Shown here in pieces: positions 3,622 through 55,573 of a DNA stretch of 64,000 nucleotides. Each line of letters begins with the position of its first letter. Position 1 is the first letter of the stretch. The stretch covers positions 34,306 to 98,305 of the forward strand of contig JAFYZT010000011.1 of the NCBI GenBank assembly GCA_017548605.1, in the 5' to 3' direction. Both the position numbers and the translations under genes were made by a program. This DNA comes from Prevotella sp. (lineage in GTDB: Bacteria; Bacteroidota; Bacteroidia; Bacteroidales; Bacteroidaceae). The notes below the pieces were generated by a model. That model had not been told where the DNA came from. It saw nothing but the letters and a program-made list of their open reading frames with translations, and did no database searches.

Positions 3622-3779
3622 TGTCTAGTTTTGTTAATGAATATTCGCTTTGTTGGTAACAATATCAAAATGTGGGTGCAAATATACTTATTCTCATGAT
3701 ACAACAATAATAAATACGTAAAAAATTGATGTAATTGCTAAATAATTGGTATTTTTGTAGAGTTTTAATATTTGGAGAC

Positions 3780-4397
3780 ATGAAAAAGTTTTTGCTATTT
3801 GTCGCAGTGTCATTACTGACCTTGGCAAGCTGTTCCGACAGCAAGAAAGAGACAACAGCATCGGGCGTTTCGTTCGATGAAGTATTAACCACCCGCAGGA
3901 GTGTGCGCAGCTACGATGCCACGAAAAAGATTTCCGAGGCTGAAGTGCGCGACCTGCTCAAGGCCGTACAGGAAGCTCCTTCCTGGGCCAACCAGCAGCC
4001 AACAAAATATTACGTGGCTATGAGTGCGGAGAAACTGGCCGCTGTTCAAGACATGGTAGGCGGTAACAAGGAGCGCATCAAGGATGCCCCTGTACTCATC
4101 GTCTCAACCTATGAAAAAGGCAAGTCGGGCTTTTTCAAAGGCGAACAGAGCAATGAGATTGGCGACGGATGGGGAGCCTACGACAATGGGCTGAGCAACT
4201 GCTATCTCATCCTAAAGGCACGTGCCATGGGTTTCGACACCCTCATCATGGGCATGCGTGAAGCCGATAAGTTACGGGAGTTGTTTTCCATCCCCAGCGA
4301 TGAGACCATCATGGCCGTCATCTCTTTAGGATATCGTGCTGAAGAGCCAAACCGTCCTGAGAGAAGGCCTTTGGATGAAATAGCGAAGTTCTTCTGA
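3780..4397 (+). CDS. Nitroreductase-family lipoprotein
   Basis: FMN-dependent oxidoreductase of the nitroreductase fold, 205 aa. I start it at the ATG at 3780 (MKKFLLFVAV) because this gives a proper lipoprotein signal with lipobox LAS-C at Cys18; an upstream ATG at 3735 would precede the TATTTTTG promoter element at 3750-3757. The 'TTRRSVRSYD' motif binds FMN phosphate, and 'GWGAYDNGLSNCYLILKARAMG' followed by 'GMREADKLRELF' is typical of the family. Lipid anchoring of a nitroreductase is a Bacteroidales habit. It converges on the flavin reductase gene with a 6-bp gap. Confidence 0.86.
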   Translation: MKKFLLFVAVSLLTLASCSDSKKETTASGVSFDEVLTTRRSVRSYDATKKISEAEVRDLLKAVQEAPSWANQQPTKYYVAMSAEKLAAVQDMVGGNKERIKDAPVLIVSTYEKGKSGFFKGEQSNEIGDGWGAYDNGLSNCYLILKARAMGFDTLIMGMREADKLRELFSIPSDETIMAVISLGYRAEEPNRPERRPLDEIAKFF

Positions 4398-46891: not shown

Positions 46892-46925
46892 TAAATGGAA
46901 GATTTGTGTTTTTATCCTAAAACAG

Positions 46926-46998
<73 letters not shown>

Positions 46999-47056
46999 AA
47001 CGAAATGTAATATTGAGAACAGCAACAACGGTGGTTGTTCTCGACAATTGTTTTTG

Positions 47057-47140
47057 TGAAGAGGAGGAGACTCGAACTCCCACGTCGCAATTGACACTAC
47101 CCCCTCAAAGTAGCGCGTCTACCAATTCCGCCACCTCTCC
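47057..47140 (-). tRNA. tRNA-Leu (GAG anticodon)
   Basis: 84 nt class II tRNA with long variable arm. Minus strand GGAGAGGTGGCGGAATTGGT..., anticodon stem CTACT/GGTAG, loop TTGAGGG, so anticodon GAG. Confidence 0.94.
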
Positions 47141-47165
47141 AACAAAAACCATTCTAAATAAAAAG

Positions 47166-47247
47166 TGCCCAGAACAGGACTCGAACCTGCACACCTCTCG
47201 GCACACGCACCTGAAACGTGCGCGTCTACCAATTCCGCCACCTGGGC
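47166..47247 (-). tRNA. tRNA-Leu (CAG anticodon)
   Basis: 82 nt class II tRNA. Minus strand GCCCAGGTGGCGGAATTGGT..., anticodon stem CACGT/GCGTG, loop TTCAGGT, so anticodon CAG. Confidence 0.93.
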
Positions 47248-47283
47248 CAGTCATAAAGACGTTGGTATTTATTCAGAATGTTG

Positions 47284-47356
<73 letters not shown>

Positions 47357-47397
47357 AAAAAACCCTTTTTGAGGGTGCGTTTCTCTAAACGCGGTTG

Positions 47398-47428
47398 CAA
47401 AGGTAACGCTTTTTTTGGAACTGACAAA
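47398..47428 (-). promoter_or_regulatory. Promoter of the tRNA cluster
   Basis: On the minus strand TTTG (47425-47428), 19-bp spacer, TACCTTTG (47398-47405), about 42 bp before the first tRNA. It may also drive the downstream protein genes to 42960. Confidence 0.8.
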
Positions 47429-47587
47429 CTTTTGTGGGATTTTTTTGAAAAAAATGTTTGGGGGTATGATATTCTATTTTTGACATAGGAACTCTAAGTT
47501 TGCTGCGTCTAAGAATAATATGTTTTTTTGCTTGGTAAGGCTCGATTCCCCTAAGAATAATAAGGAGGGATGAGTGACGAATGGATT

Positions 47588-47669
47588 CCCATCCCATCCC
47601 AGGGGAGGAGGCAGGGGTGGGGTCAGTGATGAGCGATCCCGTGCGGGCGGATTTGCAATCCGACCGCAC
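47588..47669. repeat. Palindromic repeat inside the truncated gpG gene
   Basis: Contains ATCCCAGGGGAGGAGGCAG and the inverted repeat GTGCGG-gc-GGATTTGCAATCC-ga-CCGCAC (47641-47669). It replaces the expected end of the gpG reading frame. Confidence 0.7.
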
Positions 47670-48049
47670 CCCTTTCCTCCGTCCGAAGTTTCCTGCAGCC
47701 TCGTATGCCTTTGCGCGGAAGAATCGTTTCATGCGTTGTGTGACGACGATTTCGCCACCCTCATTATGTATGGCCGCGTAGGGTTCTGTAGAGAAGAACT
47801 CAATGTGCGCGTCAGCCACTCGCGATTGTATGCTACGCCGCAGCCTTCCCGTATCGGTGAGTATGGCCCTTCCCTCGTTCCTCACCGGCGACTTCCGCCG
47901 CTGCCAAGCCTCGGAGAAGAAGGCCTGTCGCTCGAAGTTCCGGTCGAACTCGTCGGTGAGCTCTACCTGAATGTCGCGTAGGATGGTTTTGATGATCGGC
48001 TGGATATTTTCAGTCATTTTGTTGTATTTTTGCAGTAAAAAAATCAGTT

Positions 48050-48484
48050 ATGACTATTATATCCAACTCCGAAGACAGCAAAACAACATTTCTCGAGCTA
48101 ATAAATCAGAGAAGAGCTTTGAACAACGAACTGTCAGTTGTGCTTCGCCATTACACAGGCATATCGTCCACTCTACTTGCTCTATTGGCTGTGTTTGGTG
48201 ATATAGCTTCGTTTTCCCTTCCAGTAAGGATTCTGATTTCAGCGAGTATGACGTGTTTACTTTCATCTGTTCTGTCGGGAGTGTGGTGCTGTATGGCAGT
48301 TTATCTAACACGCGAAAGAGCCATGGGAAGAGTTCTCGAACAGCTGAGGACGAAAGCCGGAAATGCTCAAGGGTCAGTATCTCCCCCTTTCGGATTCTCC
48401 TTTTTTGTGCGATTCTGCCCCACCATGTTGTGCTTGGGCGTTCTATTCTTATGGCTGAGCGCCATGTTTTTGTTGTTTTTTTAA
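48050..48484 (+). CDS. Small membrane protein inserted in prophage, opposite orientation
   Basis: 144 aa. Two membrane-helix hairpins are predicted (about 36-80 and 117-144) around a basic loop ('YLTRERAMGRVLEQLRTKAG'). It starts 18 bp after a TATTTTTG promoter box (48025-48032) and is transcribed against gpF and gpG, between which it lies. No family recognised. Position and orientation are those of a phage moron; an immunity role for the neighbouring gpF C-terminal domain is possible but unproven. Its stop codon is inside the 71-bp repeat. A minus-strand frame over the same DNA lacks protein-like features. Confidence 0.65.
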   Translation: MTIISNSEDSKTTFLELINQRRALNNELSVVLRHYTGISSTLLALLAVFGDIASFSLPVRILISASMTCLLSSVLSGVWCCMAVYLTRERAMGRVLEQLRTKAGNAQGSVSPPFGFSFFVRFCPTMLCLGVLFLWLSAMFLLFF

Positions 48485-48546
48485 TGCTTTCTTCCATTTT
48501 TATGTGTTTTTTATTTGGAAGTTAAAATATTTTGTTTATCTTTGCA
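48477..48546 (+). repeat. 71-bp promoter-bearing repeat, copy 1
   Basis: Begins TTTTTTAATGCTTTCTTCCA and ends GTTTATCTTTGCAG. Near-identical to 51323-51393. It lies 82 bp beyond the stop codon of the first gpF-fusion gene. Confidence 0.88.
48514..48544 (+). promoter_or_regulatory. Promoter facing into the 3' end of the first gpF-fusion gene
   Basis: TTTG (48514-48517), 19-bp spacer, TATCTTTG (48537-48544). A transcript from about 48551 would run antisense into the toxin-like end of the gene at 48628-49854. No good coding sequence follows. Confidence 0.7.
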
Positions 48547-48627
48547 GACAAATAAAGGCGTTTTTCAAGTTATCCCACGTCCATGCTTAGCATGAGACAC
48601 ACTGGGGAGGTGACGGAAATAACGCTT

Positions 48628-49854
48628 TTATTTTTTATATATTCTTATAATGTGCATGAAATTGCCATCCCTGTTGCATCTGACCTTCATTTCCACCCGA
48701 TAGCAGTCGTCTATATATTCATAAACCCTGAATATTTGTCCAGGATGGTCTGAGGTCGGTTCGTTTGGATTTGTCAGTTCCGCATCAACGATTAACTCGT
48801 GGGCTTTTTTTGCATAGGCCAATTTCAAAGAATAAAGAATATCCTCTTGATGCTTGTTTATAGTCTCATCATAAAAATTTCTATTGATAATTACCCTTAT
48901 CCCATCTTTCGTATCTCTTTCAAAACGTCTCGCAGGGAACTTTCCATCCATAACGTGCGGCAGTTCCTGTTTATACCAGTTTGTCAAATCCCTTTGAGCT
49001 CTCCTTACTTGTGAACGTGTGCTCGGCGATGGTTCTTTATCCTTTTCCATTTGATGGATTAGACGACATGCAGCACATAGTTCATTGTCTGGGATGAATG
49101 TGCGTGATAGGCTTAATGGGCTTTCTGAACCGTTTCCTTTTGCGATGTCACAGTCCCGGCAGCGCTTGATGGTGTAGGGGTTGTAGTCCGGCATCGTCTT
49201 TTGTTCTATGCCAGGATTGAAATGGAAGATGGAAGCCCCCGCAGGGGAGGTGCCAAGTGCCTCTTCTCCGAGTGCCATTGCCTCGTCGTGGGGTGTCTCT
49301 GGGTACTTTGACTTGCGAACCTGGACCACCGTGCATCGGCAGTTCCATCCGTTGGGCGGGTAGTAGTCTGCCCAGAACGTGTCCGACGGCGGCAGCGTTA
49401 TGCCGTGGAGCGCGGCGTGTTCCTCGCGCACGCGGTCGTCCTGTGCCGTGCGGTACTGGAGGTTGTATCGGTCGCCGTCTTTCTGGAACTCCTCCCACTT
49501 GGCGGCCATGGCGGCCGATGCCTGCACGAAGTTGTACTCTGCCCGGAGGTAGTTCTGGTTGTAGGTGCGGTCAATCTTTTGAACGTCCTTCAAAAACTGT
49601 TCGAACGGCTTTCTATTGCCGTTCTCGTCGATGAGCGAGGGGAACGCCTCGTTGAGTTCGTGGAACGTCTTGATGCCGGAGAAGATGTAGTCGGAGCGTT
49701 GCAGCCGCTGGCGCATGCTGTCGGACATGGTGACCTGCCGGAATCCGGAATCAAGTGCTGCAGCATGTGCGTTGATGAAGTCCTGAGCCGGCTGTTCTGT
49801 GATGATGCCGATACGCAGGTGGGACCCTTCCTCCTGGTAGAGTGCGCTCATCAT
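48628..49854 (-). CDS. Phage minor head protein (Mu gpF-like) with nuclease/toxin-like C-terminal domain
   Basis: 408 aa from the ATG at 49854; homology-like sequence (SPSDYLGLHERYAQ) extends upstream to about 49975 without an ATG, so the true start is probably lost or non-ATG. Residues ~140-215 are the gpF core ('REEHAALHGITLPPSDTFW', 'YYPPNGWNCRCTV'). A Cys motif (CRDCD...NELCAACR, ~220-260) links to a C-terminal domain (~285-408) ending 'VEMKVRCNRDGNFMHIIRIYKK' (cut to motif CNRDGNFMHIIRIYK). That end resembles the phage Barnase/EndoU/ColicinE5/RelE-like (PBECR) nuclease domains known to be fused to gpF proteins; the match is by eye. Confidence 0.75.
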   Translation of the reverse strand: MMSALYQEEGSHLRIGIITEQPAQDFINAHAAALDSGFRQVTMSDSMRQRLQRSDYIFSGIKTFHELNEAFPSLIDENGNRKPFEQFLKDVQKIDRTYNQNYLRAEYNFVQASAAMAAKWEEFQKDGDRYNLQYRTAQDDRVREEHAALHGITLPPSDTFWADYYPPNGWNCRCTVVQVRKSKYPETPHDEAMALGEEALGTSPAGASIFHFNPGIEQKTMPDYNPYTIKRCRDCDIAKGNGSESPLSLSRTFIPDNELCAACRLIHQMEKDKEPSPSTRSQVRRAQRDLTNWYKQELPHVMDGKFPARRFERDTKDGIRVIINRNFYDETINKHQEDILYSLKLAYAKKAHELIVDAELTNPNEPTSDHPGQIFRVYEYIDDCYRVEMKVRCNRDGNFMHIIRIYKK

Positions 49855-49979
49855 TCCGTTGAAGAGCCGTGACAGTTCCTGGCGTATCTCGTCTTCACGG
49901 CTGAAGGTGACGACGGGGAAACCGCTGTCCGCGAGAATTTGGGCATATCGTTCGTGGAGCCCCAGGTAGTCACTGGGGC

Positions 49980-50813
49980 TCAGTCGAAAAAAGGGTGTTG
50001 GTCGTTTGGGAGTCTGGGCTCCCTCCCTTGGGGAGGGCCGGGGTGGGTTCTTTCACTCCCTCCCTTTGGGAGGGCAGGGGGTGGGTTTCCCCTACGCTCC
50101 CCTACCGGCATGTTGTATTTCTCCTCGAAGTAGGCGGGGTCCACCTCGTAGTTGTTCAGCACCATCTGCTCGTAGGCCACCTGCTGCTCCGGCGTGTAGT
50201 CCGTGGAGTAGTCCCAGTCGAAGCGTATGCCTTGGAGCGGGAAGCCGTGACGGATCATGCGCGGGATGAGCTGGTTGTTCACCATGTCGCGCAGCATGTC
50301 GCAGTCGGCCTCTACGATGTTCTGGAACACCTCGAGGTGGGTTTGTGACTGTGAGAGGCTGGAGCCGTCCTCGAGTGTCATGGTCTGCCCGATGATGAGT
50401 TTGGAGAGTTCCGAGTTGGCCCGTTCGATGCGTCGGTCATATACGTTGAAAGCATCGCCTTTTGAAGACTCGACAACCTCTATTTCCGTACCTTGCTGGA
50501 AGATGCCCCAGCCCTCGGTACCCATGTCGTTCATCATCTTCTCCATCTTCGCCAGTTCCTTGTCATCGCGTGAGGTTGTCCTGGCTATGCGCATGGGCAT
50601 TCCGAAGATTTCGGCGAAGGTGTCCCAGAAGGCGAGTGCGTTTTTCTTGGGAATGGTCTGTGTGGCCGCTTTCAGGTAAAGACCGAGGCTGTCGGGCTGC
50701 CCCACCTCGATGAGCCAGTCAGAGAACGGGGGCTCATGGTAGTCGATGCCGGAGTGCCAGTCCTGGCCCAGGTCGGTGATGACACGGTGATATTCCGGAA
50801 TGACATGCTTACG
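49980..50813 (-). pseudogene. Phage portal protein (Mu gp29-like, DUF935), both ends damaged
   Basis: Portal homology starts abruptly at 'PRKHVIPEYHRVITDLGQDW' (50813) and runs through 'LAFWDTFAEIFGMPMRI', 'SSKGDAFNVYDRRIERANSELSK' (cut), 'TMTLEDGSSLSQSQTHLEVF' to 'EEKYNMPVGE'. The N-terminal half is missing: the DNA upstream belongs to another head gene. The end ('NPPPALPKGGSERTHPGPPQ') is translated from two CCCTCCC/GGGAGGG palindromes at 50022-50098. The portal normally feeds DNA into the capsid; this copy cannot be functional. Confidence 0.82.
50022..50098. repeat. Double CCCTCCC/GGGAGGG palindrome at the portal/gpF junction
   Basis: Two copies of CTCCCTCCCTTGGGGAGGG / CTCCCTCCCTTTGGGAGGG separated by a GGGTGGGTT linker. 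They lie where the portal frame ends and the gpF frame should begin. Confidence 0.78.
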
Positions 50814-51172
50814 GGGTATGCGTTGGCGATATAGGGGTGTGAGTCGGCGAAGAGCTTTGCGTCGATGCCTGGGTTGCTGTCGAGTCCGGGCTGTGGTTGT
50901 GACCCGACGGTGGAACCGCTGGGCACACTCGTTGGCGGTTCGTCGGTGGATCGGAGGTCGCACTTGCAGTTCCATCGGTCGCCTGGCCGGTGTTGGTTCC
51001 AGAAGTCGTGCGCTATAGGTAGGATGGTGTTCCAGAAGGGCTGGTGATCAGCTCTCGCGTCTGCTTGTCTTGGTTGGTGCCGTCAGCGGAGTTGTTGCCG
51101 CTGTGGCCAGTCTTTTGTCTCTCCTGCTTTAGAAGTTCGTTGAAAGTGATGGAAAATGTGTGTAGTTGCCAT
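50814..51172 (-). pseudogene. Fragment of a second type of phage minor head protein
   Basis: The minus strand encodes 'FSITFNELLKQERQKTG' and 'TRELITSP', then after a one-base frame loss at about 51035-51042 'FWNTILPIAHDFWNQHRPGD', 'RWNCKCDLRSTDEPPT' and 'GLDSNPGIDAKLFADSHPYI', stopping at 50814 where portal sequence begins. The WNCKC motif marks a gpF-type head protein, but of a different subfamily from the two gpF cores nearby (NGWNCRC). It is thus a frameshifted, truncated gene fused to the portal fragment. Confidence 0.7.
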
Positions 51173-51207
51173 TTTCTGAATTTTTTCTGTTTTTTTCTTT
51201 CATTTTG

Positions 51208-51238
51208 TTTGGAGGTTAGGGATTTTTTTGTATCTTTG
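51208..51238 (+). promoter_or_regulatory. Promoter of candidate small RNA
   Basis: TTTG (51208-51211), 19-bp spacer, TATCTTTG (51231-51238). The core (TTTGGAGGTTAGGG...TATCTTTGCAG) resembles the promoters in the 71-bp repeats. Confidence 0.72.
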
Positions 51239-51243
51239 CAGTG

Positions 51244-51327
51244 TCCTTTGTGACTACCCGCTGAGTATGCGTGGGGGTTATGAACCTTATCGTCACGCCC
51301 CAGAAGCCATCTTTCGATGGCTTTTTT
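51244..51327 (+). ncRNA. Candidate small RNA in the prophage
   Basis: Downstream of a full promoter lie about 85 nt without a convincing reading frame, able to form a GCGTG/CACGC stem, ending in the intrinsic terminator GCCATC-TTTC-GATGGC-TTTTTT (51307-51327). It lies between phage gene fragments and directly before the second 71-bp repeat. Function unknown. Confidence 0.5.
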
Positions 51328-51393
51328 AATGCTTTCTTCCATTTTTTTTGTGTTTTTTATTTGGAAGTTAAAATATTTTGTTTATCTTTGCAG
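51323..51393 (+). repeat. 71-bp promoter-bearing repeat, copy 2
   Basis: Near-identical to 48477-48546 (differences confined to a T/A run). It lies 59 bp beyond the stop codon of the second gpF-fusion gene, the same relative position as copy 1. Confidence 0.88.
51360..51390 (+). promoter_or_regulatory. Promoter facing into the 3' end of the second gpF-fusion gene
   Basis: TTTG (51360-51363), 19-bp spacer, TATCTTTG (51383-51390). It reads antisense into the toxin-like end of the gene at 51452-52228. Confidence 0.7.
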
Positions 51394-51451
51394 TTGGAAT
51401 AGCATCAGGGTTGAGCCTTGGATTGTAACTCCAGGTAGTTCTTCCTTTTTG

Positions 51452-52228
51452 CTATTTCTTTTTTATGTATTTCTTTATTTCTTCTGGATTGTCAGAAATG
51501 GAATGGAGGACGTATTCTCCCCAATCCCACTCCCAAACAATTATACATTGTTCATCCCCTTTTACCTTAGTGGAGAAAATATGACTTTGCTTTAATTTTG
51601 GCTTTTGGTTATGAGGCGGAAGTGTCGATGGTCCCAGGTATTCACACTCTTTTTCTTCAAACACTTCATTTATACGTAGTAGCATCTTGTTTTTTTCTTG
51701 ATAGTGTTTGTTGGGTTGGTTGGTCCATTCTGTTATTGATGCTCTTGATATATTTATAGGATGGGGAAATTTCGATGTGTTGATAGAAGTCCCCTGTAGT
51801 GGTTTGGCTTGTTTCCTTGTCTGCTTGGCATCAGCATTTGCTAATGATCTGACAATCCGGCACGCAGCACACAGTTCATTCTCCGGCACAAACGCCAGCG
51901 ATAACTTCCCCTTTGCCAGGTCGCAGTCGCGGCACCGTTTGATGGTGTAGGGGTTGTAGTCGGGGAAAGTCTTTTGTTCTATTCCAGGATTGAAATGAAA
52001 GATGCCCTTTGTGTCCTTTCCTGTTGCGAGTTCTCCGAGTTGCATGGCCTCGTCGTGCGGGGTCACGGGATACTTCGACTTCCTCACCTGTACCACCGTG
52101 CATCGGCAGTTCCATCCGTTGGGCGGGTAATAGTCGGCCCAGAACGTGTCCGACGGCGGCAGCGTCACGCCGTGGAGCGCGGCGTGTTCCTCGCGCACGC
52201 GGTCGTCCTGTGCCGTGCGGTACAGGCC
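51452..52228 (-). pseudogene. Second gpF-like head gene with a different toxin-like C-terminal domain, 5' truncated
   Basis: The gpF core is intact from 'LYRTAQDDRVREEHAALHG' onwards and nearly the same as in the gene at 48628-49854 (PPSDTFWADYYPPNGWNCRC, HFNPGIEQKT, CRDCDLAKG...NELCAACR). Directly after the last Cys motif the sequences diverge: this copy ends in a ~120-residue domain with 'LKQSHIFSTKVKGDEQCIIV' and 'WGEYVLHSISDNPEEIKKYI', unrelated to the first by eye. The N-terminal ~140 residues are missing; plus-strand tail genes begin at about 52227. An internal GTG at 52198 leaves 248 codons open. Confidence 0.78.
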
Positions 52229-52449
52229 GTGAGGTGACGAGCCTCAAGGGTGACGAGCTGTCGCTTCTTGCCGTGTGGCTGTGGTGCTGCATCGCCAGCG
52301 CGTCGAAGCACGACGGTGTGGAGTTCACACTTTCGGTGGAGGATTTCGCCGACAGCGTCACACCCGAGGTGCTCCAGTCCTGGCAGAAGGCCGTGGAAGC
52401 GGAAAACCCTACGACGGTGCCTCCGGGGGCACCACAGAACTTGGCCTGA
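52227..52449 (+). pseudogene. Phage tail assembly chaperone (first of pair), 5' truncated
   Basis: The frame encodes 'EVTSLKGDELSLLAVWLWCC' and 'VEFTLSVEDFADSVTPEVLQ', typical of tail-tube assembly chaperones of Bacteroidales phages. Its start is replaced by the head-gene fragment. It overlaps the next frame (-1), with a G5 run at 52425-52429 where a G/GT-style -1 frameshift could occur. Confidence 0.65.
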
Positions 52450-52460
52450 CCATCGAGGAG

Positions 52461-52793
52461 ATGCTCGGTCATGCCCTGGGCGTGGCGGGCATCTCCTTTT
52501 CCGACTTCTGCATCCTCACTCCTGGCGAGTTTGCTCAGGTGTGCCGCCGCCACCGTGAGCATGAGGAGGAACTGGAGCGTGCGCGGTGGGAACGGATGCG
52601 GCTGCTTGCCGCCATCACCGTGCAGCCGCACTGCAAGAAAAAGATTACTCCGGAAAAGCTGCTTCCTCTTCCCTGGGATAAGGGGCGGGGAAGAGAAAAA
52701 GAAAAGATGAAAATCTTAAAGGAGAGCAGCCGTGAAAGGATGATGGAAGTGGCGAGGCGGAGTGCTACCCGTCGTACCGACCATGATCAATAA
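52461..52793 (+). CDS. Phage tail assembly chaperone (second of pair)
   Basis: 110 aa from ATG 52461 (MLGHALGVAGISFSDFCILTP), or reached by -1 frameshift from the preceding frame, which continues as 'GTTELGLTIEE'. 'EFAQVCRRHREHEEE' and 'WERMRLLAAITVQPHCKKK' with 'LLPLPWDK' are typical of tail chaperone T-type proteins. The end (RSATRRTDHDQ) is translated from the flank of the small membrane gene cassette, so the true C-terminus may be altered. Confidence 0.68.
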   Translation: MLGHALGVAGISFSDFCILTPGEFAQVCRRHREHEEELERARWERMRLLAAITVQPHCKKKITPEKLLPLPWDKGRGREKEKMKILKESSRERMMEVARRSATRRTDHDQ

Positions 52794-52806
52794 GGCCCTT
52801 GTCTTC
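52738..52806. repeat. ~69-bp duplicated segment, copy 1
   Basis: GGATGATGGAAGTGGCGAGG... through the last codons of the small membrane gene. Nearly the same as 53521-53589. Confidence 0.85.
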
Positions 52807-52989
52807 GTCGTCAGGAATCACCGCCCACAAAAATAGGATGAAGGTAACTCCAAAGATCAAACCGGAAATAAAACCGACCCTCAGTGAAGTGGGTGTTTGT
52901 AAACACAAAGCAAACACCATCACCGAAAAGGAGATGGAAACCGTTGCCCACAGCAACATGAACAGGAAATTCTTTATCTTTTTCAGCAT
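52765..52989 (-). CDS. Small two-helix membrane protein, cassette 1
   Basis: 74 aa (MLKKIKNFLFMLLWATVSIS...). Two hydrophobic helices and a conserved acidic end 'PDDEDKGLIDHGRYDG'. It has its own full promoter at 53010-53041 and is transcribed against the phage tail genes. A paralogue with the same end lies at 53548-53760. Unknown function; phage moron, superinfection exclusion or immunity are possibilities, none shown by sequence. Confidence 0.7.
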   Translation of the reverse strand: MLKKIKNFLFMLLWATVSISFSVMVFALCLQTPTSLRVGFISGLIFGVTFILFLWAVIPDDEDKGLIDHGRYDG

Positions 52990-53009
52990 GTCGTGATGTT
53001 TACCTGCTG

Positions 53010-53041
53010 CAAATATATTCAATATTAACCGATAATCCAAA
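53010..53041 (-). promoter_or_regulatory. Promoter of small membrane gene cassette 1
   Basis: On the minus strand TTTG (53038-53041), 20-bp spacer, TATATTTG (53010-53017), 21 bp before the ATG. Confidence 0.76.
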
Positions 53042-53056
53042 TTTTCCTCCAAAAAA

Positions 53057-53545
53057 ATGGCAAAGGAAGTAAAATTCACCATCAAACTGAACGTTGACGG
53101 CAAAGAGCAAGTGGTCGATGCCACTACCGACGTGCAGAAACTCTCCGAGGAATTAGGCTTCGCCAAGACCCGTTCCGATGAGATGCGCAACTCGTTGCTC
53201 AAGATGAACAACGTGACGCAGACTCTTCAGAACGTGTTTGCCGGCTTGCAGCAGATTACGGGACAGCTGCAGGAGTACTTAGGTGCCTACTCCATACAGT
53301 CAGAGGCCGAGACGAAACTGGCCAACAACATGCGCAACACCATGGATGCCCGCGAGGAGGACATCCAGAGCATCAAGGACCTGTGTTCAGCCCAGCAGGA
53401 TCTCGGAGTCATCGGCGACGAGGTGCAACTGTCCGGGGCTCAGGAACTGGCCACTTATCTGGAGAAAAAATCCAGTCTGGAAAAGCTCATCCCGGTGATG
53501 AACGACATGGCCGCCGCGCAGGATGATGGAAGTGTGGCGGCGTAG
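53057..53545 (+). pseudogene. Phage tail tape-measure protein, N-terminal fragment 1
   Basis: 162 codons. 'MAKEVKFTIKLNVDGKEQVVDATTDVQKL' (cut: VKFTIKLNVDGKEQ) is the usual start of Bacteroidales phage tape-measure proteins, followed by helical 'MNNVTQTLQNVFAGLQQITG'. Tape-measure proteins exceed 700 aa, but here homology stops at 'VMNDMAAAQ' (about 53520), where the duplicated 69-bp segment begins and closes the frame after seven codons. Confidence 0.8.
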
Positions 53546-53589
53546 TGCTACCCGTCGTACCGACCATGATCAATAAGGCCCTTGTCTTC
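53521..53589. repeat. ~69-bp duplicated segment, copy 2
   Basis: Same sequence as 52738-52806 with a few differences; cuts the tape-measure frame and contains the last codons of cassette 2. Confidence 0.85.
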
Positions 53590-53760
53590 ATCATTGGGAA
53601 TCAACACGCAAAGCAAGATGACAAACGAAAGACCAAAAACGATTCCGGCAAGAAAACTTTCCACGGTCATTTTAGTGAAAAAGCCGTAGATCATCCAGAC
53701 AAAAGAGACGATGACCGTCGCTAATAACATGAGAAATAAGAAGTTTTTCAACGTTTCCAT
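53548..53760 (-). CDS. Small two-helix membrane protein, cassette 2
   Basis: 70 aa (METLKNFLFLMLLATVIVSF...), paralogue of the protein at 52765-52989: same layout, diverged helices, but an almost identical end 'PNDEDKGLIDHGRYDG'. Upstream only a weak CATCTTTG promoter-like box is seen. Opposite to the tail genes. Confidence 0.66.
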   Translation of the reverse strand: METLKNFLFLMLLATVIVSFVWMIYGFFTKMTVESFLAGIVFGLSFVILLCVLIPNDEDKGLIDHGRYDG

Positions 53761-53796
53761 GGATGTACCGGTTGATTGTCCGCCCCAAAGATGACG

Positions 53797-54072
53797 CTAT
53801 CGCTGCCATTTCTTCTCTTCTTCATACTCTTTGTCGCCCGGCTCGTATTCGAACAGTGTGTCCGGTCCTTGCCTATCCAAGAGACCGTATTTGTCGGAAA
53901 AGGCTCTCAAATATATGCCGATGCTCCAGACTACGGAGAAAACGAGGATGATGAGGCTGACGGCACAGACATCATACGAAGCTGTGTACCATGAGAGGGC
54001 TGCCAGCATGAAGGAGAGCAGTGCCACGAAGATGCAGGCGAAGAGTTTCTTACCTCGTTTTTTGAGTTTCAT
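53797..54072 (-). CDS. Small two-helix membrane protein, cassette 3
   Basis: 91 aa (MKLKKRGKKLFACIFVALLS...). Two hydrophobic helices and a hydrophilic end 'DKYGLLDRQGPDTLFEYEPG', faintly like the DKGLIDHGRYDG end of the other two. A TATATTTG box at 54086-54093 is 14 bp before the ATG, so the mRNA would be almost leaderless. Unknown function. Confidence 0.66.
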   Translation of the reverse strand: MKLKKRGKKLFACIFVALLSFMLAALSWYTASYDVCAVSLIILVFSVVWSIGIYLRAFSDKYGLLDRQGPDTLFEYEPGDKEYEEEKKWQR

Positions 54073-54113: not shown

Positions 54114-54233
54114 ATGCCTAATCCCGTAACTTTTAAGATAAAAATCCTGGTTGACGGCAGAGAAAGGGTTGTCGAGGCGACTACGGATGTCGCGACCTTT
54201 GCCGTCAGTCGTCAGTCCATGCGGTGGAGATAA
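54114..54233 (+). pseudogene. Phage tail tape-measure protein, N-terminal fragment 2
   Basis: Only ~32 phage codons remain: 'MPNPVTFKIKILVDGRERVV' then 'EATTDVATFAV', clearly parallel to the first fragment (VKFTIKLNVDGKEQVVDATTDV). Phage similarity ends at about 54204 where the nspC region begins; the frame then stops inside nspC antisense. This marks the right end of the prophage island. Confidence 0.72.
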
Positions 54234-55351
54234 TCTTCGAAGGAGTATTCGCGGAGAAGTTCGACGGTGCCGTCAGCATGGCGAATGGCGATGGAAGGAT
54301 GCTGGATGCCATTGAACATGTTGGTCTTAACCGTGGTGTAATGAATCATGTCCTCGAAAATGAGTTCCTCACCAATCTGCAGTTCATGGTCGAAACGCCA
54401 ATAACCCATAAAGTCGCCGGAGAGGCAACTGTTGCCGCCTAACCGATAGAGGTGAGTGGTGAGAGGTGAGGGATGAGGAGTATCGAGGATTTCCGCACCG
54501 CGAACTTCGGGCGTATAGGGCATTTCGAGACAGTCAGGCATGTGACATGTGAAGCTCACGTCGAGGATAGCAGTTCGTATGTTTTTGTTTTCCACAATAT
54601 CAACTACGTGTGCCACCAATTCGCCTGTCTGCCAGGCGAAAGCACTTCCTGGTTCGAGTATTATCTTTAAATGCGGATAGCGGCTGTGGAAGTCATTGAG
54701 CAGTTGTTTAAGCAAAGGGATGTCGTAATCGGAACGTGTCATAAGATGACCACCGCCGAAATTGATCCATTTAATTTGTGGGAACCACCGCGAGAAATGA
54801 CGTTCTATATGTTGAAGCGTGCGTTGAAACACATCCGAACCACTCTCACAATGGCAATGGCAGTGGAAGCCCTCGACAAGAGCAGGTAGTTGGTCAGGTA
54901 GTTGGTCGTCAGTGACGCCGAACCGTGTTCCCGGGGCACATGGGTTATAGATATCTGTTCCCACCTCGGAATACTCCGGATTGACGCGCAGTCCGAAACT
55001 CAGTTGCCGGTTTGCCTGCTTTGCCCGTTCCGCCAGTCGTGAGAACTGTGACAACGAGTTGAACGTGAGGTGTGAGGAACAGCGTGCTATGTCCTCGATT
55101 TCATGGTCAGTATAAGCAGGTGAATAGGTGTGGCACGGACTACCAAAGTACTCATAACCCATTCGTGCCTCGTTGAGCGAACTGGCTGTGGTGGCGTGGA
55201 TATACTCGCGGAAAATGGGAAATGTCTTCCACAGAGCAAAAGCCTTGAAAGCCAGGATAATTTCCACGTCTGTTTCTTTCGCTACCGTGGTGATGAGTTG
55301 TAGATTTCGACGGAGTTTGTTCTCATCTATGATGTAATAGGGAGTTTTCAT
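54212..55351 (-). CDS. nspC: Carboxynorspermidine decarboxylase
   Basis: 379 aa PLP enzyme of fold type III, last step of sym-norspermidine/spermidine synthesis by the carboxy-route. PLP lysine Lys36 in 'IILAFKAFALW'; 'FHCHCHCESGSDVF', 'NFGGGHLMTRSDYD', 'EPGSAFAWQTG' and 'GNSCLSGDFMG' (substrate Cys) are all present. Between 'VRGAEIL' and 'YRLGGNSC' an extra 'DTPHPSPLTTHL' is encoded by a GTGAGAGG-type array (54446-54480), which looks like an in-frame repeat insertion. No carboxynorspermidine synthase gene is in the window. Confidence 0.93.
   Translation of the reverse strand: MKTPYYIIDENKLRRNLQLITTVAKETDVEIILAFKAFALWKTFPIFREYIHATTASSLNEARMGYEYFGSPCHTYSPAYTDHEIEDIARCSSHLTFNSLSQFSRLAERAKQANRQLSFGLRVNPEYSEVGTDIYNPCAPGTRFGVTDDQLPDQLPALVEGFHCHCHCESGSDVFQRTLQHIERHFSRWFPQIKWINFGGGHLMTRSDYDIPLLKQLLNDFHSRYPHLKIILEPGSAFAWQTGELVAHVVDIVENKNIRTAILDVSFTCHMPDCLEMPYTPEVRGAEILDTPHPSPLTTHLYRLGGNSCLSGDFMGYWRFDHELQIGEELIFEDMIHYTTVKTNMFNGIQHPSIAIRHADGTVELLREYSFEDYLHRMD
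54446..54480 (+). repeat. GTGAGAGG-type array inside nspC
   Basis: GAGGTGAGTGGTGAGAGGTG-like units on the + strand, antisense to nspC and in frame with it. Confidence 0.7.
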
Positions 55352-55470
55352 GAGTGATGAGTGATGAGTGATGAGTGACGAGTTACGAGTGATGAGTTAC
55401 GAGAGATGGGTGATGAGTTACGAGTAATGAGTTACGAGAGATGGGTGATGAGTTACGAGTAATAAGTGAT
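55352..55470 (+). repeat. GAGTGATGAGTTACGA tandem array upstream of nspC
   Basis: About 120 bp of GAGTGATGAGT/GAGTTACGAGT/GAGAGATGGGT units between the nspC start and its likely promoter (TATTTTTG on the minus strand at 55487-55494), hence in the nspC 5' UTR. Related units recur at 57317-57333. Confidence 0.85.
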
Positions 55471-55573
55471 GGAAAGTTTATATTGGCAAAAATACAAAAA
55501 ATACGAAAATGCCCCAATTTTATCTGGATAAAATTTGGGTGTTAAGGTATATTTTAATAATTTTGCAAGTGGT

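Follow-up and report, generated by a model that had tools for sequence, protein, structure and literature searches.

In the passages of the literature covered here, four descriptions come close to the system studied. MuF polymorphic toxins were described in temperate phages, where a small open reading frame (ORF) follows 89.4% of the 191 genes (Jamet et al., 2017; PMC5576092). PBECR domains fused to MuF were described among polyvalent phage proteins (PMC5512222), and small immunity ORFs were found behind glutamine-deaminase MuF toxins, for which the complexes were modelled (PMC11699363). Furthermore, in the AbiF-RCd22 pair a structured RNA neutralises the prophage toxin AbiF by direct interaction (PMC12373285). 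Here we analysed a stretch of 64,000 nucleotides from Prevotella sp. (contig JAFYZT010000011.1, positions 34,306 to 98,305), called the window, in whose own numbering all positions are given. It contains two genes for the MuF-domain minor head protein gpF, each followed by a copy of the same 71-bp repeat. To our knowledge, the immunity of polymorphic toxins is known as protein only. Judged from sequence comparison, the locus very probably represents the remnants of MuF polymorphic toxins with a small structured RNA as immunity element. It is also likely, with somewhat less confidence, that these are polymorphic toxins with many dissimilar antitoxin RNAs, one for each RNase class, which are exchanged together with the toxin end, occur as orphans in arrays and in some cases mimic the anticodon arm of tRNAs.

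The 71-bp repeat and the convergent promoter

Both gpF genes are encoded on the minus strand and carry the MuF (Phage_Mu_F) head domain at their N-terminal side. gpF1 (48628..49854; Phage_Mu_F E 1.6e-17) comprises 408 residues counted from the first ATG, upstream of which the reading frame stays open to a total of 474 residues. gpF2 (51452..52228; Phage_Mu_F 6.6e-12, LPD3 1.5e-10) is truncated at the 5' end, a fragment without its N-terminal part. The two repeat copies (48477..48547 and about 51323..51393, both read on the plus strand) are 97% identical and are the sole full-length copies in the assembly, a third match covering 29 nucleotides only. The preliminary description, which had reported a near-identical repeat behind each gpF gene, was therefore right in this point. 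Two occurrences of the 35-nucleotide 3' half in the window compare with none in 100 shuffles, so the repeat is not a product of chance. In 99 further genomes the full-length repeat was not found, the best match reaching 83% identity across 53 nucleotides, and some match at E<=0.001 was obtained in 32 of the 100 genomes (own genome plus the 99). With only two full copies and none in the 99 genomes, the reading as a mobile element or a general repeat was rejected.

At its 3' end each copy reads TTTG-N19-TATCTTTG-CAG on the plus strand, directed back toward the gpF stop codon, with TTTG-N19-TATCTTTG at 48514-48544 in the first copy and the motif at 51360-51390 in the second. The consensus of sigma-ABfr of Bacteroidota consists of TAnnTTTG at -7 and TTTG at -33 (PMC7366714), and the repeat carries a complete predicted promoter of this type opposite to the gpF strand. 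The two copies are the putative promoters of the structured stretches RNA-A and RNA-B, respectively. A third predicted promoter (51208..51238, plus strand; with the next C, 51208-51239) precedes the stretch RNA-D. The opposite-strand promoter, the structured stretch after each repeat copy and this third unit (51208-51323) had all been overlooked in the preliminary description.

To set the locus among its relatives, 297 gpF loci (L033-L329) were gathered from 100 genomes, from 398 genomes of the genus (57 matched, 30 loci used), from viral contigs (the best 80 of 590 and the best 80 of 543) and from genome contigs (the best 80 of 535). Loci in which a gpF stop codon is followed by 200 bp or more were analysed (277, with 20 left out), and removal of those with equal last 60 residues gave 217 distinct gpF. 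Of the 277 gpF genes, 235 are followed by a convergent TAnnTTTG at a distance of 20-200 bp from the stop, and 25 by the same motif on the gpF strand; among the remaining long ORF ends of these loci a convergent TAnnTTTG follows 71 of 1696. For the full motif TTTG-N17-23-TAnnTTTG the numbers are 164/277 convergent to gpF, 16/1696 behind other ORF ends and 1/277 on the same strand. The recurring element is the predicted convergent promoter, not the exact 71 bp.

Behind related cores the gpF ends form 21 C-terminal clusters, nine of them with at least three members and some of the 12 singles without an intact end. Pfam families among the ends are CdiA_C, LPD3, PBECR2 and Gln_amidase, each label resting on one to three members of its cluster. 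When promoters 35-150 bp behind the stop are counted among the distinct gpF, the promoter is found with 173 of 178 nuclease-like ends (mostly 46-150 nucleotides from the stop), with 2 of 31 deamidase/peptidase-like ends and with none of the eight gpF without an intact end. This is seen cluster by cluster: 81/84 in cluster 0 (CdiA_C), 28/28 in cluster 1 (LPD3, weak), 22/22 in cluster 3 (LPD3, the cluster of gpF2), 18/18 in cluster 4 (that of gpF1), 12/13 in cluster 5, 9/9 in cluster 6 (CdiA_C, weak), 2/3 in cluster 8 (PBECR2) and 1/1 in cluster 13, against 2/24 in cluster 2 (Gln_amidase), 0/4 in cluster 7 (HExxH, by eye) and 0/3 for three single ends that look peptidase-like. Grouping at 50% identity leaves 65 of 68 nuclease-like groups with the promoter, versus 2 of 14 others. 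Seven gpF are exceptions to the class rule. Three look truncated or frameshifted by eye (L064, L070, L203), in L082 the motif is one base off, in L052 the promoter is farther away, and L216 is a gpF of the deamidase class with an RNA of RNA cluster 3, which is otherwise paired with toxin cluster 0; L236 is the seventh.

Putative structured RNAs, toxin ends and the proposed immunity slot

Downstream of each predicted promoter a structured stretch is found on the plus strand. RNA-A (48548..48636; fold z -4.97) is convergent to gpF1 and extends up to the gpF1 stop, and RNA-B (51394..51463; fold z -4.97), a hairpin with the 7-nucleotide loop UUGUAAC, is convergent to gpF2; the start and end of both are predicted positions. 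RNA-D (51240..51323; fold z -3.18) is an orphan in tandem with RNA-B and shows, by eye, a terminator-like hairpin with a T run. Relatives of RNA-A are located behind the gpF of three further loci (L034, L055, L250), those of RNA-D behind CdiA_C-type gpF ends (L044, L207). The sense strand has the lower fold energy in all three, with z values for sense and complement of -4.97 and -3.80 (RNA-A), -4.97 and -2.30 (RNA-B) and -3.18 and -2.84 (RNA-D). A scan of window positions 47000-54000 with Rfam 15 at E<=1 returned tRNAs only and no family for the RNAs, and the same database applied to 20 of the 297 loci gave two tRNAs and one RT-3 RNA elsewhere, with no match at the place of the RNA; a known Rfam RNA is thereby excluded as the identity of the RNAs of the window. 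The RT-3 RNA (RF03068, 153.5 bits) belongs to a phage from IMG/VR, in which it follows the gpF stop at a distance of about 500 bp (L059:2442-2590).

The same holds for the relatives. For 173 RNAs the mean z is -2.67 in sense and -1.80 in antisense direction, with the sense strand more stable in 143 of them, and G-U pairs make up 13.4% of the sense folds versus 7.6% of the antisense folds. At the corresponding place of 31 deamidase/peptidase loci z is -0.45. In the family of RNA-B (14 sequences) 97.6% of the pairs of the upper stem are kept, and four of six pairs show two-sided changes; only the upper stem was counted because MAFFT misaligned the lower one. Among 500 shuffles of this stem none reached the paired share or the covariation score, two reached the pair count and 210 the number of pair types. 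Kept double changes were also seen in 7 of 16 pairs of a cluster-0 RNA family and in 11 of 15 pairs of the cluster-1 family, the covariation term of the latter being slightly unfavourable (+0.15). The 7-nucleotide loop UUGUANU or UUGUAAC is present in 14/14 members of the RNA cluster of RNA-B (13/14 when a shorter stretch is folded).

The sequence of the putative RNA is linked to the toxin end. Similar RNA pairs belong to the same toxin cluster in 478 of 481 cases, compared with 4189 of 15931 among all pairs. Two of the three exceptional pairs come from L274, which has two tandem RNAs, one resembling its own class and one resembling class 4; the third is L213-L216. For pairs of gpF with cores below 45% and toxins of at least 45% identity, the RNA is similar in 31/94, the promoter in 3/94, and the flank and the core DNA in 0/94 each. 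For pairs with cores of at least 90% and unrelated toxins the RNA is similar in 0/157, the promoter in 85/157, the flank in 47/157 and the core DNA in 157/157. With cores of 75-90% and unrelated toxins the promoter stretch is similar in only 314/3245, so the promoter arm is common to close phages only. The RNA goes with the type of toxin, not with the head protein, as far as can be read from these comparisons. A cassette exchange with the gpF core and the repeat as two homology arms, as proposed in the preliminary description, is supported among close phages, the exchanged cassette probably consisting of toxin end plus RNA and the arms of gpF core and promoter; the idea of the repeat as a mere arm has to be given up, since it is the predicted promoter of the RNA. 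The term orphan cassette is fitting for gpF2, which is a fragment within a decayed prophage, and suits the orphan RNA-D better.

Searches that started from the RNA led back to gpF. The 19-nucleotide loop of the cluster-0 RNAs alone gave 34 hits in viral contigs, 30 of them 24-40 nucleotides from the stop of a convergent gpF with the cognate end, many of these belonging to near-identical phages or to contigs that the set already contained; of the remaining matches one is at a contig end and three are elsewhere. The RNA-D motif was matched seven times in the 398 genomes and twice in viral contigs. Five of these matches have a cognate CdiA_C end and the window copy stands in tandem with RNA-B, while L336 is stand-alone, L334 has no toxin match and L335 is located beside an apparently broken toxin end. 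Within 2.5 kb behind the cognate RNA, the 277 loci yielded 30 rows of further RNAs, all 30 in the cognate orientation. Leaving out 8 from duplicate loci, 4 own-class copies, 3 from loci with broken ends and 3 from gpF without end, 12 foreign-class RNAs remain in 10 loci, among them the window (L049). Two RNA units are present in L036 and L071, and second own-class copies in L182, L211 and L264. Putative RNAs of other toxin classes thus apparently occur without their toxin, as do the orphan immunity genes of Rhs and contact-dependent inhibition (CDI) arrays. Two of the three cluster-0 loop matches elsewhere (L346, L367) are, by reading of the ORFs, orphan RNAs that immediately follow Phage_tail_S in a phage with an LPD3-ended gpF. 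The place behind Phage_tail_S is a second recurring site of orphan RNAs.

In the deamidase/peptidase-like classes the same slot is occupied differently. A promoter-led convergent ORF of at least 40 residues, starting no more than 110 bp behind the promoter and ending near the gpF stop, was found in 23 of 30 deamidase/peptidase loci (L151 and L216 among the 23 look doubtful) versus 24 of 173 nuclease loci. On the latter number, a small convergent ORF was rejected as the general immunity gene of the nuclease classes. Inside the RNA an ATG-started ORF of at least ten codons is present in 20 of 174 cases. Because deamidase loci hold the promoter-led ORF and immunity ORFs are described behind such toxins in the covered part of PMC11699363, we infer that the slot encodes an immunity protein for deamidase/peptidase-like toxins and an immunity RNA for nuclease-like ones. 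Among cultured phages, Hankyphage p00 and BKO1-TP4 have, in our own reading, a papain/deamidase-like end; their slot is occupied by a small convergent ORF, and TAnnTTTG lies about 250 bp away. In Bacteroides phage p00 (L378) this place behind the Mu F-like gene holds a convergent 'hypothetical protein' (3752-4051), which we regard as a good candidate immunity protein. The gpF of FPSV-S1 is without end and without convergent promoter.

Mechanism and competing explanations

The association of the promoter with the toxin class is itself strong, and we infer from the sequences that the RNA is produced and neutralises the toxin. In the proposed mechanism the lysogen would transcribe the RNA from the RNA's own promoter, and gpF would be packed into the head and injected together with the phage genome. 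The RNase at its C-terminus would cleave RNA of the host, and the small RNA would bind the matching toxin end, perhaps as substrate mimic, shielding the lysogen and the producing cell. Orphan RNAs such as RNA-D might guard against toxins of other phages, and the 71-bp repeat would be the promoter arm of the exchange system. If the names of the RNase ends (LPD3, CdiA_C, PBECR2) hold, these act on RNA, and inhibition by an RNA could then rest on mimicry of the substrate. The loop of RNA-B is close to anticodon loops of a relative (tRNA-His UUGUGGU, tRNA-Tyr CUGUAAA). Colicin E5 cleaves GUN tRNAs. With its stem and the 7-nucleotide loop with U-G-U-A, RNA-B may be a mimic of the anticodon arm in tRNAs with GUN anticodons, which we regard as a lead only.

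Several points weigh against this interpretation. The sample consists of the nearest relatives only, the control ORF ends include non-genes, and the toxin classes were set after the first RNAs had been seen, the per-cluster counts being free of labels; for clusters 4, 5 and 13 the assignment to the nucleases is tentative. Toxins of the same class (at least 45% identity) partly have dissimilar RNAs, with similar RNAs in 31/94, 141/214, 195/290 and 34/39 pairs at rising core identity. When the promoter condition is dropped, a convergent ORF of at least 40 residues is found near the stop in 102 of 173 nuclease loci and in 28 of 30 deamidase/peptidase loci. A pattern for RNA-B, which cannot match the window's own RNA-B because the loop differs by one base, had five matches in the 398 genomes. 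Three are cognate, two of them representing a single stretch found twice, on different contigs of the same genome; the other two are away from any gpF end. As to mimicry, a UGUA loop is present in 17 of 22 class-3 RNAs, in 15 with a length of 7 nucleotides, and L142, L174, L176, L177 and L211 differ; a comparison of all classes with rRNA (16S and a 4.2-kb stretch meant as 23S, from one relative) gave scattered 8-mers only. Finally, Peternella_1, a phage of Flavobacteriia, has an extended gpF end, nuclease-like by eye, and no promoter within 300 bp. The class rule may thus fail outside Bacteroidales, Peternella_1 being a misfit unless its immunity gene is located elsewhere.

The best surviving alternative, although an improbable one, is a type I-like system, in which a convergent cis-antisense RNA would lower toxin synthesis by pairing with the 3'-terminal part of the gpF mRNA. 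In the inspected loci the opposite-strand RNA does abut or overlap the gpF stop, and it would be complementary to a longer gpF mRNA, so that an antisense effect is conceivable. A pure antisense RNA would, however, not need the conserved loops and compensatory pairs observed, nor is the better folding of the sense strand, with its larger share of G-U pairs (0.134 versus 0.076), expected from it. Moreover, copies of foreign classes are found at sites for which no matching mRNA is apparent, and the promoter is absent from gpF without nuclease-like end except in 2 of 39. A further point against it is that gpF is needed for the virion.

Less probable still is that the RNA is a virion partner of gpF, that is a packaged, structural or guide RNA, and no antitoxin. 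Such a role would also fit the strict co-occurrence with the gpF end, but foreign-class and orphan RNAs are found without a matching gpF, and in the deamidase class the slot holds a small ORF, which is an immunity protein according to the covered part of PMC11699363.

We give very little weight to the possibility that convergent late genes share the structured stretch as a bidirectional terminator, with the promoter serving something else. In line with it, 139 of 173 loci have a run of at least four T around the gpF stop, and hairpins are found near the stop. Against it speak the class-specific sequence that tracks the toxin, the antisense promoter in 173/178 versus 2/31, the stand-alone orphan RNAs with their own promoter and the little structure of the control class at this place (z -0.45). 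That gpF core and 71-bp repeat are recombination arms only, without any RNA, is hardly tenable: both full repeat copies lie behind gpF and the promoter stretch is common to unrelated toxins of close phages (85/157), but the 71 bp hold a complete promoter, and the exact repeat is absent from the 99 other genomes while promoter plus structured stretch are general.

If the RNA immunity reading is true, surveys of small ORFs would overlook a large share of the toxins of Bacteroidales phages. The end classes LPD3, CdiA_C and PBECR2 would gain a testable partner, with RNA loops that hint at the RNA target of each toxin, many small toxin-specific RNA inhibitors would become available for structural study, and RNase delivery by phage head proteins would become testable.

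The prophage locus and its relation to known systems

The two gpF genes of the window have a common region from REEHAALHG to NELCAACR, beyond which the two sequences differ. This shared core was seen correctly in the preliminary description, whose wording 'nearly identical' was overstated, the identity being 84% across 327 nucleotides of DNA and 81% for the protein. The claim that the C-terminal ends are unrelated was not confirmed. Domain B, the end of gpF2 (51455..51859, minus strand), matches LPD3 (PF18798) at E 1.5e-10 with 41.7 bits, above the curated cut-off of 27. Domain A, the end of gpF1 (48631..49065, minus strand), is weakly LPD3-like: gpF1's own end A is without a Pfam LPD3 match, and in its family 4 of 18 members match LPD3, with a best E of 6.7e-5 that is below the curated cut-off judging by bits, and one of 18 also matches AbiGii_2 at 0.018. 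Alignment of the two families with hhalign gave a probability of 33% (E 4.5e-4), and against cluster 1 end B reached 87% and end A 13%. A sequence search of the PDB with both ends gave no credible match. Given the LPD3 matches in both families and the hhalign result, a distant LPD3 relationship between the two ends is probable.

The surroundings look like a decayed Mu-like prophage, since the portal gene lacks its N-terminal part, a third gpF is left as a remnant, the Phage_tail_S gene is matched in half and tail-like fragments follow. The Mu-type portal gene (49980..50819, minus strand; Portal_Mu 3.9e-60) covers profile positions 85-335 of 336. The remnant of the third, distant gpF core (50822..51109, minus strand; E 1.9e-5 with one TGA, and 4.2e-20) has no toxin end left. 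In the gpG/Phage_tail_S gene (47385..48017, minus strand) residues 10-91 of 210 match PF05069 (6e-9) and the 3' part is unmatched. Above 52230, phage-tail-like fragments are found by reading of the ORFs.

Between the tail_S gene and RNA-A, an ORF of 144 residues with hydrophobic stretches (48050-48484, plus strand) has no Pfam or PHROG match at E<=1; in L034 this position is taken by another, dissimilar small ORF, one end of which is hydrophobic. Beside the tail_S gene there is a tRNA cluster Gly-Leu-Leu-Gly (46925-47356, minus strand), whose two tRNA-Gly copies are identical across 76 nucleotides. This cluster is a possible old integration or deletion edge. A 138-nucleotide stretch with small minus-strand ORFs is duplicated (79%) at 52737-52874 and 53520-53657, the copies flanking a fragment (53057-53545) which may be a tape-measure gene, and 7-base tandem repeats (e.g., ATGAGTG, ACGAGTT) are located at 55350-55475, just upstream of the ORF 54212-55351 on the minus strand.

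RNA immunity of polymorphic toxins was not among the matches listed for open-licence PMC papers other than preprints. With the MuF toxins of Jamet et al. the locus has in common the MuF head domain, the variable C-terminal toxin, the temperate phages and a proposed immunity element directly behind; the difference is that immunity was taken there to be a small protein, whereas the nuclease classes here have a convergent structured RNA and, at the convergent slot, in general no small immunity protein gene beside the toxin (covered part of PMC5576092, in whose main text the word stem Bacteroid- has no occurrence). The Bxa family of MuF toxins (Alexei et al., 2024; PMC11699363) likewise belongs to Bacteroidales and has glutamine deaminases, as in cluster 2, with a small element behind; its immunity is a protein, and nuclease ends with RNA are not among the passages covered. 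The LPD3/PBECR polyvalent proteins agree in the LPD3 end of gpF2 and the PBECR2 of cluster 8, an RNA partner being unmentioned in the covered passages of PMC5512222.

Type III toxin-antitoxin systems such as ToxIN, CptIN and TenpIN resemble the proposed system, in which the antitoxin would likewise be an RNA and would act by direct binding to an RNase toxin. In those systems a repeat RNA, usually in tandem, is encoded upstream in the operon of a ToxN- or AbiQ-like toxin, whereas here the RNA is downstream and convergent with a predicted promoter of its own, the upstream one-operon arrangement was not found, and the LPD3, CdiA_C or PBECR2 ends (Pfam) are fused to a head protein. AbiF-RCd22 is similarly type III-like, with a prophage-encoded toxic protein that a structured RNA neutralises; according to the abstract that toxin is an Abi_2/AbiD/F protein and no virion protein, and an exchange of toxin ends is not mentioned there (PMC12373285). 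In its arrangement the locus is reminiscent of the orphan modules of CDI and Rhs systems, with the exchange of C-terminal cassettes and orphan immunity genes in arrays, with the difference that here the immunity would be an RNA and the delivery would be accomplished by the phage head.

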